Shown here: piece by piece, positions 3,316 to 38,791 of the stretch
How the letters are laid out: each line of letters begins with the position of its first letter
Numbering within the stretch: position 1 is the stretch's first letter
Assembly (NCBI GenBank): GCA_025056175.1
Contig: JANWWK010000002.1
Span: 1-61,303, forward strand
Length of the DNA stretch: 61,303 nt
Direction: 5' to 3'
From: Anaerolineales bacterium
GTDB taxonomy: Bacteria > Chloroflexota > Anaerolineae > Anaerolineales > Villigracilaceae
The notes under the pieces: model-generated
What the model was told of the DNA's origin: nothing
Seen by the model: the letters and a program-made list of their open reading frames with translations, nothing else
The model's database searches: none
Program-made: the position numbers and the translations under genes

Positions 3316-5496
3316 ATGAAACAACTGCTGCAAAATCTGAAGAACGGCCAAACGACCATCGAAGAAGTTCCCATTCCCACCCCGCGCGCTGGACAGGCGC
3401 TCGTCAAAGTAGCTGCTTCGCTCGTTTCCGCCGGCACCGAACGGATGGTGGTCGAATTTGCCGAAAAATCGCTCCTGGGAAAGGCGCGTTCCCGTCCCGA
3501 TTTGGTCAAACAAGTTCTGCAAAAAATGTCTCGTGAGGGTGTTTTTCCTGCTTTGCAGGCCGCCTTCCACCGTCTCGATAACCCCATGCCGCTGGGCTAT
3601 TCGTCGGCTGGTGTCATCACCGCGCTTGGAGCAGGGATGGAGGGCTTTCAAATTGGTCAGCGGGTGGCCTGTGCGGGCGGGGGGTACGCCGTCCATGCCG
3701 AGTACAACCTGGTGCCGCGTAACCTGCTTACCCCCCTGCCTGCAAGCGTGGATTTTGAATCCGCTGCTTTTACCACCCTTGGCGCCATTGCCCTGCACGG
3801 CTTTCGACTGACCGGAGCACAACTGGGGGAAAATGTGGCCGTCATCGGTCTGGGTCTTTTGGGCTTGTTGACGATTCAACTTGCATCTGCGGCGGGATGC
3901 CGCGTTTGGGGGACCGATACCAACCCCGAACGGGTTGCCCTCGCCCGGCAATTTGGGATTGCGGCCTGCCCTCGTCACGAAGCCGAAGATTCGGCCCGGG
4001 CGTTTACCGCGAATCGCGGTTTCGACAGCATCATCTTGTGTGCTGATACAGCCTCCGACGACCCTGTTCGGCTGGCTGCAACCATTGCCCGTGACCGGGC
4101 GCATGTTGTGGCAACTGGCGCGGTCGGGCAGGCTTTGCCTCGCAAACTGTATTACGAAAAAGAACTTTCGTTCGTCAATTCGCGCTCGTATGGCCCCGGA
4201 CGATATGACCCCAGCTACGAGGAGCAAGGACATGATTACCCGCTCGGTTATGTGCGCTGGACGGAGGGCCGTAATTTCCAGGCTGTTGTTTCGCTTTTGG
4301 AAAGCGGCAAGTTAAATGTTCGCCCGCTCATCACACATCGCTTTCCCATCGAACGAGGGGCTGAAGCCTACGAAATTATCACCGGCAAGAAGAAAGAGCC
4401 ATTTTTGGGAGTGCTTTTAAGGTATCAGGTGTCAGAGGAGGAGCCAGCTGGTGTCACCCATCGGGAAGCAGGCAAAGTTTCTCTGACGCCTGACACCCGC
4501 ACCTTCGATTCCCGAAAACCTGATACAGTCCAGATTGGCGTCCTTGGCGCCGGTCTTTTCGCCAATGCCACGCTGTTGCCTGCGCTCAAAAAGGTAAAAG
4601 ACGTGGAACTGGTCGGAATCGCCTCGTCGGGCGGGTTACATGCTGCGCACTCCGGCAAAAAATTCGGCTTCCGCTATGCCTGCTCGGACGAGGAACAAAT
4701 TCTACATGACCCCGACATCAACACCGTCTTCGTTCTCACCCGTCACGATAGCCATGCCGACCTGGTCGTGAAGGCGTTGCGGGCCGGCAAGCATGTCTTT
4801 GTAGAGAAGCCGCTGGCGGTGAATGGGGAGCAGTTATCGGCCATTCGTGAACAGTTACTGGTGACTGATACCTGTTTGCTGATGGCCGGTTTTAATAGAC
4901 GCTTCGCTCCTCTGGCGGTTTCACTTGCCGCGCATTTTGCGTACCGCACCGAGCCGCTGTATATGCACTACCGCGTCAATGCCGGGTATATCCCTCCGAA
5001 TCATTGGGTTCACGACCCCCAACAAGGCGGCGGACGGATTGTGGGTGAGGCCTGTCATTTCATTGATTTTCTTACTTTTCTGGTTGGCGCGCCGCCGTTT
5101 ACCGTTACTGCTGTGGCTTTGCCCGATGCTGGCAAATACCGCGAGGACAACGTCTCGATGACCTTTACCTTTCCCGATGGTTCGGTTGGCGTGGTAGATT
5201 ATCTTGCCAATGGCGATAAGTCTTTTCCAAAAGAGCGCGTGGAGGTCTTTTGCGGTGGCGCAGTGGCGGTGTTGGATGATTTCAGGACGCTGGAAACGGT
5301 ACGGGATGGGAAGCGGAGAACAGTGCGACTGTGGGGGCAGGAAAAAGGCCATTTTCACGAGATTCAGGCGCTGGTGCAGGGTATCCAGCGCAGGAAACCG
5401 CCGATTCCGTATGAACATCTCATCGGCGTTACACAGGCCAGTTTTGCCGCTGTCGAATCGATTCGCAAAAATGGAGAGAAGGTGAGTCTGGGCTAG
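3316..5496 (+). CDS. Bi-domain oxidoreductase: zinc-less MDR + Gfo/Idh/MocA fusion
   Basis: A continuous 726-residue frame. Residues about 1-355 are a medium-chain (alcohol dehydrogenase-like) domain with the nucleotide-binding stretch V-I-G-L-G-L-L-G-L-L. Residues about 405-726 are a Gfo/Idh/MocA domain with G-V-L-G-A-G-L-F-A and the E-K-P-L-A-V motif. Such fusions are known near sugar and cell-surface polysaccharide genes and probably act on sugar derivatives with NAD(P), but the substrate is unknown. The linker between the domains is coded by degenerate 7-bp repeats (4421-4502). The ATG at 3316 is preferred over an upstream TTG at 3304. The gene converges on purA with a 5-base gap. Confidence 0.85.
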   Translation: MKQLLQNLKNGQTTIEEVPIPTPRAGQALVKVAASLVSAGTERMVVEFAEKSLLGKARSRPDLVKQVLQKMSREGVFPALQAAFHRLDNPMPLGYSSAGVITALGAGMEGFQIGQRVACAGGGYAVHAEYNLVPRNLLTPLPASVDFESAAFTTLGAIALHGFRLTGAQLGENVAVIGLGLLGLLTIQLASAAGCRVWGTDTNPERVALARQFGIAACPRHEAEDSARAFTANRGFDSIILCADTASDDPVRLAATIARDRAHVVATGAVGQALPRKLYYEKELSFVNSRSYGPGRYDPSYEEQGHDYPLGYVRWTEGRNFQAVVSLLESGKLNVRPLITHRFPIERGAEAYEIITGKKKEPFLGVLLRYQVSEEEPAGVTHREAGKVSLTPDTRTFDSRKPDTVQIGVLGAGLFANATLLPALKKVKDVELVGIASSGGLHAAHSGKKFGFRYACSDEEQILHDPDINTVFVLTRHDSHADLVVKALRAGKHVFVEKPLAVNGEQLSAIREQLLVTDTCLLMAGFNRRFAPLAVSLAAHFAYRTEPLYMHYRVNAGYIPPNHWVHDPQQGGGRIVGEACHFIDFLTFLVGAPPFTVTAVALPDAGKYREDNVSMTFTFPDGSVGVVDYLANGDKSFPKERVEVFCGGAVAVLDDFRTLETVRDGKRRTVRLWGQEKGHFHEIQALVQGIQRRKPPIPYEHLIGVTQASFAAVESIRKNGEKVSLG
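4421..4502 (+). repeat. Degenerate 7-bp tandem micro-repeats inside a coding linker
   Basis: GGTATCA/GGTGTCA at 4421-4434 and TCTGACG/CCTGACA at 4482-4495, with a further GGTGTCA in between. The two ends are roughly inverted relative to each other. They code the inter-domain linker of the bi-domain oxidoreductase in frame. Confidence 0.55.
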
Positions 5497-36913: not shown

Positions 36914-36988
36914 TGGAGCGGGTGATGGGATTCGAACCCACGATATTTTGCTTGGGAAGCAAACGTTCTACCACTGAACTACACCCGC
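36914..36988 (-). tRNA. tRNA-Gly (anticodon CCC), CCA encoded
   Basis: The full cloverleaf is readable. The acceptor stem is GCGGGTG / CACCCGC, the D arm GTTC..GAAC, and the anticodon arm TTTGC-TTCCCAA-GCAAA with CCC at 36954-36956. The T arm is GTGGG-TTCGAAT-CCCAT, with discriminator T and an encoded CCA end. It reads GGG glycine codons. It has its own consensus promoter and a terminator. Confidence 0.97.
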
Positions 36989-37036: not shown

Positions 37037-37528
37037 TCATTCCCCTTCGGTGGGGTAGCCGGCCTGTTGCCAGGCGGCAAAGCCGCCCAGCAGCGGCGTA
37101 ACGCGCGTGAAACCATTACGGAGCAGGATGAGCGCCGCACGGGCGCTGGCTTCTTCTGCTGGTCAGGTACAGTAGGGAATAATCCACGCACTCTTTTCTA
37201 ATTCGCCCAGTCGGTTGGGTAGTTCGTTTTCCGGGATGTTGACGGCGCCGGTAATGCGCTTGAGACGAAACGATTCGGCGCTCCGAACGTCCAGGAAAAT
37301 GGCTTCTCCCTGCTCAAGCGCCTGGCGAGCTTCCTCCAGGCTGACGCGTGGCACCGAGCGGGTATCTGCTGGCACTGCAGCGGTTGGCGGAGTGGAGGAT
37401 GGCCGGGTGAGCAGAAACGCTGCAAGTACAATCAGAAGGAGACCGCCCAGTCCGAGCAGGGCGAAGGGCAGGGGGTTTTTATGGGGTCGAGCCGCTTTGG
37501 CAGGTTTGCGGCGTGGTTTTTCAGGCAT
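37037..37528 (-). CDS. Membrane-anchored rhodanese-like protein, predicted selenoprotein (Cys-x-Sec)
   Basis: 163 residues if TGA at 37163-37165 is read as selenocysteine; 121 if not. A basic N-terminus precedes one membrane helix (about 20-42), then a Pro/Thr linker and a rhodanese fold with F-L-D-V-R-S and I-T-G-A-V-N-I-P. The active-site strand I-I-P-Y-C120-T is followed by TGA (U122), then P-A-E-E-A-S-A-R-A-A and P-L-L-G-G-F-A-A-W, ending at a TGA at 37037. As I recall the family, many rhodanese-like proteins have Cys at this site (Y-C-x-C-P). The catalytic domain would face outside. The start overlaps the CDF exporter's stop (ATGCCTGA). The role could be thiol or selenium/sulfur redox; the function is not established. 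Confidence 0.78.
37122..37162 (-). other. Candidate bacterial SECIS element
   Basis: Directly after the TGA. The upper stem AGCGCC / GGCGCT (37142-37147 and 37131-37136) has loop CGTGC, whose second base is G, 21 bases from the TGA. A lower stem AGCAG / CTGCT (37156-37160 and 37122-37126) can also form. The distance, loop size and early G fit the loose bacterial SECIS pattern for SelB binding. Confidence 0.6.
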
Positions 37529-38453
37529 GGGAGGCGTGTCCTTCGGTGATTTCACAAAACAGACGCCCGTCACCGCAACATACACTTTCCAGTTGCAGGG
37601 TGGTATGGGCAATACCGTAACGATGGGTGAGCAACTCGTTCAGCGCATCCTGAATGTGTGCACCCTGACTGATAGGAATATCTCCGGTGACCACATGTGC
37701 TGATAGCAGCCGTTTTTGCTGGTCAATGCTCCAGACGTGCAGGTCATGAATGCCTTTAACGCCCGGCACGGCGTTCATCTCGCCGACCAGACGTTCCAGG
37801 TCAATATCGCGCGGGGTGCTTTCGAGCAAAATGTGCAGGGTTTCCCGCAGAATGTTCCACGCATTCCACACAATCAGCAGGCCGATGAGTGCGCTGACGA
37901 GCGGGTCCAGCCAGTTCCAGCGGGTGAAGAAGATAACCACCCCGGCCAGCACTGCTCCCAACGTCGAAAGCACATCTCCCATGAGATGCAGGAAAGCCGA
38001 ACGCAGGTTCAAGTCGTGTTCGCTGCCGTCCTTAATCAACCAGGCGGTGACGGCGTTGACAAGAAAGGCTGCCAGCCCCACGCCTACCAGCAGACCCGAA
38101 TTGACTTCCGGCGGGTTCAGGAAGCGATGCCAGACTTCATAGAAGATTCCCAGCGCAATCAACCCGAGCGAAGCCGAATTAACCATTGCAGCCAGGATTC
38201 CAGCGCGGTGATAGCCAAAGGTGCGGCGAGCATTTGCCGGTTGCAGCGCCTTACGCATGGCGTACCAGCTCAAACCGAGCGCCAGAACATCGGTGAAATT
38301 GTGCGCAGCATCGGTCAGCAGGGCAAGGCTGTTGCCAAGCAGCCCGGCCAGGGCTTCGACGACGACAAAAGCCAGCGTCAGGCCAAGCGAAAGACTCAAC
38401 CGCCTGGTGGACGTTTGTGCAGATTCGGAAGAAAAATGAGCGTGAGGGGACAT
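37521..38453 (-). CDS. Cation diffusion facilitator (zinc exporter, CzcD type)
   Basis: 310 residues with six membrane helices and a cytoplasmic C-terminal domain. Metal site H51-x3-D55 in helix 2 and H156-x3-D160 in helix 5 is the zinc-selective H-D/H-D set. It exports Zn (possibly Cd or Co) in exchange for protons. The C-terminus adds the H-D-L-H-V-W-S motif and a tail with C-C-G-D-G-R-L-F-C. It sits 3 bases behind the ArsR/CzrA-like repressor and overlaps the start of the rhodanese, so the three form one operon. Confidence 0.92.
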   Translation of the reverse strand: MSPHAHFSSESAQTSTRRLSLSLGLTLAFVVVEALAGLLGNSLALLTDAAHNFTDVLALGLSWYAMRKALQPANARRTFGYHRAGILAAMVNSASLGLIALGIFYEVWHRFLNPPEVNSGLLVGVGLAAFLVNAVTAWLIKDGSEHDLNLRSAFLHLMGDVLSTLGAVLAGVVIFFTRWNWLDPLVSALIGLLIVWNAWNILRETLHILLESTPRDIDLERLVGEMNAVPGVKGIHDLHVWSIDQQKRLLSAHVVTGDIPISQGAHIQDALNELLTHRYGIAHTTLQLESVCCGDGRLFCEITEGHASHA

Positions 38454-38456
38454 GAA

Positions 38457-38756
38457 TCAACCGTGTTGAGCGTGTTCCAGCCCTTTTTGAAACAGTTCAG
38501 TAACGTGTTCATCGTCTATGGCGACGAACACCTGCCGCCCCTGTTTACGGGCGCGTACCAGACGTTTTTCCTTCAACCCTCGCAGCTGGTGCGAGATGGC
38601 CGATTTGGTCAGCCCAATTTGCCGCGCCAGACCGCTTACAGTGGCTTCTCCCTCCCGCAACGCCGCCACGATGCGCACGCGGGTTGGGTCGCCCAGGGCC
38701 GAAAACAGGTCGGCCAGGCGGGTGGCGGTCAGGTCATCGAGAGGAATTAGGGACAT
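38457..38756 (-). CDS. ArsR/SmtB-family repressor, CzrA-type zinc sensor
   Basis: 99 residues, winged helix with recognition segment T-K-S-A-I-S-H-Q-L-R-G-L. It has no cysteine, so it is not an ArsR/CadC thiol sensor. The last helix carries D82-x-H84-x10-H95-x2-H98, exactly the alpha-5 zinc ligand spacing of CzrA. It should bind DNA without zinc and release it with zinc, controlling the downstream CDF exporter and rhodanese. The ATG at 38756 has GGAGAT 5-6 bases upstream. A perfect operator and a 17-base-spaced promoter lie just upstream. Confidence 0.92.
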   Translation of the reverse strand: MSLIPLDDLTATRLADLFSALGDPTRVRIVAALREGEATVSGLARQIGLTKSAISHQLRGLKEKRLVRARKQGRQVFVAIDDEHVTELFQKGLEHAQHG

Positions 38757-38765
38757 AACATCTCC

Positions 38766-38791
38766 AATAGTTGAGTGTTTGCTCAACTATT
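38766..38791. promoter_or_regulatory. Perfect inverted-repeat operator of the zinc operon
   Basis: AATAGTTGAG / CTCAACTATT, 10-bp perfect arms with a 6-base spacer, between the -10 box and the ribosome site of the ArsR gene. An extra half-site TTGAG lies within the promoter spacer. This is the expected autoregulatory site. Confidence 0.82.

Follow-up and report, generated by a model that had tools for sequence, protein, structure and literature searches.

A predicted membrane-anchored selenocysteine rhodanese encoded next to a cation exporter in an Anaerolineales bacterium

Introduction

A TGA codon in the middle of the active-site loop of a rhodanese raises the question of whether it is read as a stop or as selenocysteine (Sec), and what a selenoprotein of this kind would do beside a cation exporter. 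The gene lies in a stretch of 61,303 nucleotides (positions 1 to 61,303 of contig JANWWK010000002.1, assembly GCA_025056175.1, from an Anaerolineales bacterium of the Villigracilaceae, Chloroflexota), which as a whole is called the window here. A first-pass annotation, made from the letters alone, had predicted a selenoprotein with a Cys-x-Sec motif at this locus.

The gene and its protein

The gene is located on the minus strand, on which the first-pass annotation was silent, at positions 37037–37528, with an ATG at 37528–37526 and a closing TGA at 37039–37037. Translation confirmed the proposed coordinates and the length of 163 residues, with the internal TGA (37163–37165, minus strand) as residue 122 (U122 or Sec122) and 41 further codons before the closing stop. 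When the UGA is read as Sec, the motif is W-I-I-P-Y-C-T-U-P-A-E-E-A-S-A-R-A-A; with translation table 11 the product stops at ...WIIPYCT, and a standard reading indeed truncates the gene, as had been expected.

The Pfam Rhodanese model (PF00581) matches residues 64–155, across the TGA, with 53.4 bits against a gathering cut-off of 22.2. An AlphaFold2 model from a 52-row alignment has a mean pLDDT of 87, with block means of 93–98 for residues 61–160, and contains one predicted helix at the N-terminus (residues 23–40; 37409–37462, minus strand) at lower confidence (block means of 65 and 81). The description as a membrane-anchored rhodanese is borne out by this helix and by the Pfam score, and relatives have either a similar anchor or a lipobox. 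Because of the anchor and the lipobox, the protein is probably extracytoplasmic.

By Foldseek the best solved match was 3tp9 (prob 1.00), and other rhodanese domains (BH2092 and Alr3790) were also matched. A profile alignment put Y119-C120 on the Tyr-Cys of 3tp9, a solved rhodanese domain. The catalytic residue of rhodaneses is a Cys at the position that matches Cys120 (codon 37169–37171, minus strand). Compared with 3tp9, the active-site loop has two extra residues after Y119-C120, and U122 lies inside this insertion. D80, R82, Y119, C120, U122, E125, and S128 are invariant in alignment A1, which comprises 51 of 62 usable relatives and the window protein; eight of 70 genes had been left out beforehand (the window's own copy, three odd or short ones, and four with over-long starts).

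Conservation of the in-frame TGA

The 29 best-matching relatives that were retrieved from the family's other genomes (27 of the stretches being distinct; the window locus, L034, is not counted) all have a TGA at the U122 column, and none of these closest relatives has a sense codon there. The same codon in the same column of all 29 relatives means that the TGA of the window is not due to chance. Homologues that align past the TGA had been asked for as a check, and the relatives do align beyond it and keep it.

Across the 150 sampled genomes of the family, some match at an E-value of 0.001 was obtained in 145, the window's genome included. Among the matches listed, at least 99 in at least 72 of the 150 genomes carry the TGA, counts that include rows interrupted by an additional stop codon (TAG, TAA, or, in G132, a second TGA). 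When 400 genomes of the phylum were sampled, TGA-bearing matches were also identified in other families, both inside and outside the order. Within the window's genus, the TGA form is present in one of 11 genomes, namely that of the window (G000). Sixteen further loci came from the database genome_contigs; one of them, L018 from the Anaerolineae MAG B4-07, has a TGA at the column, and the other 15 have a different letter or a gap. The column is occupied by Cys in four of these 15 (L020, L028, L029, and L033), apparently the normal catalytic Cys in a shorter loop.

A sequencing error or a pseudogene has a close to negligible probability, as this TGA is shared by many further assemblies of the family and also occurs in families elsewhere in the phylum. 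The first-pass annotation had already taken the open frame as an argument against a pseudogene; the recurrence in the assemblies of relatives and conservation at the RNA level point the same way. It had also stated that many relatives carry Cys in place of Sec (C-x-C-P). Such forms exist but are rare: L191, from a proteobacterial MAG, has Y-C-A-C-P-N-E, with a hydrophobic stretch upstream in the same frame, and is the sole Cys form in a set of 206 rhodanese segments, in which overlapping loci are counted repeatedly. No Cys homologue at the Sec column was found among the family relatives examined.

Selenocysteine machinery

The genome of the window is 100% complete in 95 contigs. As it had been suggested to look there for selA, selB, selC, and selD, profile searches were carried out, and each was present over its cut-off, with 542.9 bits for selA, 334.2 for selB, 360.8 for selD, and 76.4 bits for tRNA-Sec, which ARAGORN also reported as tRNA-SeC with anticodon tca. 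The selD gene (locus L128) has an in-frame TGA of its own, in S-S-C-A-G-U-A, followed by a predicted hairpin. In-frame TGA codons of this kind are found in the genes of Sec-containing SelD proteins, and the one in this genome is an independent sign that UGA is decoded as Sec in the organism.

As selA scores above its cut-off in 140 of the 150 family genomes, its co-occurrence with the TGA gene within the family is uninformative. Two family genomes with the TGA gene had no selA match, G095 (85% complete) and G132 (95% complete, 700 contigs).

A SECIS-type hairpin downstream of the TGA

The candidate SECIS element GCGCC-CGUGC-GGCGC is located at 37132–37146 on the minus strand, 19–33 bases from the U of the UGA. 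Over the relatives the hairpin has the form GCGCC-CGUGC-GGCGY at bases 19–33 counted from this U, and evidence for it comes from frozen codons, from pairing, and from compensatory changes. The codons were analysed in 70 distinct genes, the window and L018 among them, which had been selected for a TGA at the column and which thus test the codons and the pairing and not the TGA itself. The codons U+6 to U+10 (Ser-Ala-Arg-Ala-Ala) are frozen, with AGC in 68/70, GCC in 70/70, CGT in 67/67 Arg, GCG in 67/67 Ala, and GCG in 68/70, whereas in the rest of the same genes AGC, GCC, CGT, and GCG are used for their respective amino acids in 25, 35, 18, and 31% of cases. Codon choice varies at other highly conserved Ala, Gly, and Pro residues, for example at Ala +34, which is distributed 24, 23, 12, and 7 over its four codons. 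The codons just before the TGA are biased as well (ACC at −1 in 69/69 Thr).

Pairing was assessed in 95 distinct sequences drawn from inside and outside the window's family (97 genes minus two repeats; the 27 non-family genes are those with a TGA in the motif pattern). Standard pairs make up 471 of the 475 cells of the five pairs, and 21–60% when the pairing partner is slid by 1–3. As few broken inner pairs as observed (2; shuffle mean 7.8) were reached in none of 2000 shuffles, which overstate the significance because the sequences share ancestry (the 70 genes form 25 clusters at 70% identity). Compensatory changes are found in L018 and L163 (C-G to U-A) as well as in L164, L180, and L177; in L177 the Ser codon family switches from AGC to TCA and the pairing partners change with it. 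The window copy by itself does not fold significantly better than shuffled sequence (z of −1.19; 23 of 200 shuffles equally good), and the covariation term of RNAalifold is slightly unfavourable. An Rfam search around the gene gave the tRNA and four matches below their gathering scores.

If the UGA were a real stop, a short anchored fragment would be made and the rest would be a decaying remnant. This explanation agrees with the end of the table 11 frame at YCT and is nevertheless highly improbable, since both the downstream protein and the RNA are conserved over many diverged loci. Pseudogene, sequencing error, and plain stop were ruled out by recurrence and RNA-level conservation together. 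That the UGA is read through as another amino acid (near-cognate Trp or Cys) is just as improbable as the plain stop, in view of the SECIS-type hairpin just downstream, the complete Sec machinery, and the Cys homologue at the column.

The selenoprotein reading of the first-pass annotation is thus supported by the conserved TGA, the hairpin, the Sec machinery, and the continuation of the rhodanese past the TGA. Judged from sequence, the insertion of Sec at UGA 122 is predicted with near certainty, and the window gene very likely encodes a Sec-containing, membrane-anchored rhodanese. Decoding would be performed by SelB and tRNA-Sec with the hairpin just downstream of the codon.

Variants in other lineages

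Six loci (L162, L163, L164, L165, L166, and L168) have a TGA both at the catalytic Cys and at +2 and read Y-U-x-U-P. They belong to four other families of the phylum and have the same kind of hairpin; their sites are located roughly at position 4,200–4,300 counted on the matching strand. selA was over cut-off in five of the six genomes, with none in G403.

Several other forms were encountered during the comparison. The active site of L183 is YCA-U-P. On the minus strand of L175, two rhodanese domains are encoded in one frame (offsets 3646 and 4081 on that strand), the second with Y-C-T-U-P. L185 has a rhodanese-like frame from position 877. Its TGA follows Y-C-T-G-A-T at a distance of a few codons, off the usual column, and may either mark another Sec site or be a genuine stop. 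L150–L155, from family f25, have a similar anchored architecture, with an active site that reads Y-G-D-A or Y-T-D-Q and contains neither Cys nor Sec; selA exceeds its cut-off in six of six of these f25 genomes. A plasmid search yielded 107 records (15 of the 107 listed), all below 60% identity. In the plasmid records H10–H13, the rhodanese matches lie under genes annotated as ArsR/SmtB family regulators, possibly ArsR–rhodanese fusions.

Relation to known rhodaneses and selenoproteins

The best NCBIfam match of the window protein is NF041203 (rhodanese_LYCAU, 'rhodanese-related (seleno)protein'), with which it shares the rhodanese domain and Cys-x-Sec. With 78.5 bits (71.9 in the genome search) it is below the curated cut-off of 115, which is reached in none of the 150 family genomes (best 85.8). 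The match covers residues 52–161 and leaves the anchor at 23–40 outside, and the window motif is Y-C-T-U, in contrast to L-Y-C-A-U in the model name. Membership in NF041203 was rejected on the score, although the Cys-x-Sec motif is present.

TsoB (NF045694), a rhodanese/DsbD-like double selenoprotein, is likewise a rhodanese-related selenoprotein; its Sec spacing is given as UxxxxU in a passage of PMC13188914. Membership was rejected here as well, with 21.1 bits against a cut-off of 805 for a window protein of 163 residues and one rhodanese domain. The ArsR-type regulator TsoR (NF045707) shares its system name with TsoB, and the ArsR of the window scores 46.2 bits against its cut-off of 115. 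The single-domain rhodaneses GlpE, PspE, and YgaP have the same fold as the window protein, which is below the cut-offs of the GlpE and PspE models and differs by a longer active-site loop and by Sec at +2 from Cys (compared with 3tp9). ArsR/SmtB–CDF metal efflux operons combine a regulator and a transporter as in the window, where a selenoprotein gene is added.

The Cys-x-Sec rhodanese had been called unusual, and this holds only in part. CxU rhodanese selenoproteins are already catalogued: in the passages of PMC13188914, NF041203 is rhodanese form 3 with CxU, one of five rhodanese forms (UxxS, UxxG, CxU, UxxG, and UxxxxU) that do not include UxU, and a passage of PMC9312934 describes COG0607 form 2 with CxU. 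Parts of the Sargasso Sea study (PMC1088965) report a rhodanese-related selenoprotein of another COG, and parts of a 2006 survey (PMC1794560) list three selenoproteins of three families for Chloroflexi. The main text on deep-Sep (PMC12013277) does not mention rhodanese. No earlier account of the window's branch was found in the partial texts of the literature on rhodanese/selenoprotein, Chloroflexota, UxU, and cation diffusion facilitator, including the passages of PMC5322559, PMC5736913, and PMC8318568. What is new are the membrane-anchored or lipoprotein forms, the recurring metal-gene context of the window's type of gene, and Y-U-x-U-P at six loci.

Genomic context

The gene order in the window is ArsR, CDF, Sec-rhodanese, all on the minus strand. 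The exporter neighbour named in the first-pass annotation was identified as a CDF-family (ZitB-like) cation efflux transporter (37521–38453; PF01545, PF16916) that overlaps the rhodanese gene by 8 bases; it is over the cut-off of TIGR01297 (269 bits) and below that of the ZitB model (224 bits against 408). The ArsR/SmtB-type metalloregulator (38457–38786) scores 88.5 bits with NF033788 (cut-off 55), and its C-terminal D-x-H...H-x2-H resembles the alpha-5 zinc site of SmtB. A tRNA-Gly (36917–36988, minus strand), found by a tRNA match, lies downstream of the cluster and outside its function, and marks the insertion point, being in the same place in G011.

A CDF match at an E-value of 1e-60 was obtained in three of the 11 genomes of the genus. 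G011 has ArsR (80%), CDF (82%), tRNA-Gly, and a LigA-like ORF in the window's order, and has no rhodanese between CDF and tRNA-Gly. Zinc efflux is therefore independent of the rhodanese, which is an accessory gene at this place, either gained in the window genome or lost in G011. Locus L195 (2421–2645) is a same-genus place between CDF and tRNA-Gly without the Sec-rhodanese. In the third CDF genome, G064, neither a rhodanese nor an ArsR of the window's kind was present within the 2.7 kb examined.

The relatives fall into two types, which the tree separates weakly and the context and N-terminus separate clearly. In a set of 61 loci with longer flanking sequence, the sister type was defined by a nearby PepF (M3 oligopeptidase) or cupin gene (36 loci), and the other 25, the window included, form the window's type; near-copies, such as L064 and L089, occur among the loci. 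Genes of the window's type have a plain membrane anchor at the N-terminus. A broad lipobox pattern was found in 37/38 genes of the sister type against 1/30 of the window's type (types sorted by hand), and a stricter pattern in 13/36 sister loci against 0/25. The active-site motif of the sister type is the same as in the window's type. L104, L107, and L109 have the sister context, yet group with the window's type in the poorly resolved tree.

At loci of the window's type, an ArsR of the window kind is present on the same strand in 18/25 (in 11 of them at most 1.9 kb upstream of the TGA), a CDF exporter in 8/25, a P-type metal ATPase in 12/25, and a Zn-ABC permease in 4/25. At least one of these four metal genes is found at 19 of the 25 loci and none at the other six; at the 36 sister loci none of the four was found. 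Since the types were told apart by the neighbours themselves and the metal-gene references were taken from the window's type, 19/25 against 0/36 is a description and not an independent test. The ArsR proteins close upstream of 10 relatives have a similar C-terminal motif, D-x-H...H-x2-H (H-x2-Y in one). A second, ordinary rhodanese lies directly downstream in 10/25 loci of the window's type.

Possible function

From the fold and the motif, a redox or persulfide role is the favoured reading of the Sec-rhodanese, at about even chances. Cys120 would take up sulfane sulfur or attack a disulfide, Sec122 in the enlarged loop would resolve the Cys120 intermediate as a Cys-Se selenenylsulfide, and a thioredoxin-like partner would reduce this again. 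Such a cycle would make the protein a persulfide/thiol-disulfide redox enzyme and not a plain sulfurtransferase.

A true sulfurtransferase, in which Sec speeds the transfer of sulfur (or selenium) to an acceptor, for instance the neighbouring second rhodanese, with thiosulfate or persulfides as donors, is unlikely. The rhodanese domain and the ordinary rhodanese just downstream at 10 of the window-type loci would suit it; the loop two residues longer than in 3tp9, with Sec at +2, argues against it, and in the window no second rhodanese adjoins the gene.

It is doubtful, if somewhat less so, that Cys-x-Sec binds a soft metal (Zn, Cd, or Hg) outside the membrane and that the protein serves the exporter as a chaperone or buffer instead of being a redox enzyme. 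The recurrent ArsR, CDF, and P-type ATPase neighbours of the window's type are in line with metal binding, and passages of PMC13188914 suggest metal-binding roles for several other selenoproteins. However, the sister type has the same active-site motif at 36 loci without any of the four metal genes, and D80, R82, and C120 are invariant in A1, as for an enzyme.

A link of the window's type to zinc stress is given slightly better than even chances. Genes of this type are probably expressed together with an exporter of zinc (or Cd/Co) under the control of a SmtB-type repressor, and for the window we infer co-transcription with the exporter and induction by zinc. The protein may shield envelope thiols from damage, or restore them, during metal stress. 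The complete proposal, namely that a zinc-responsive, SmtB-controlled operon with an anchored Cys-x-Sec rhodanese links selenium to envelope zinc tolerance in this phylum, and that Sec-x-Sec rhodaneses exist in other families of the phylum, is put forward tentatively, its chances being somewhat short of even.

Implications

Standard annotation cuts such genes at the active site, and a group present in at least 72 of the 150 sampled genomes of the family can therefore be missed. The recurring metal-sensor and exporter neighbours offer a direct hypothesis for the function of a rhodanese selenoprotein. If the Sec-x-Sec rhodaneses are true, both of their active-site residues would be selenocysteine, and this version would allow three natural active sites, Sec-x-Sec, Cys-x-Sec, and Cys-x-Cys, to be compared within a single fold.
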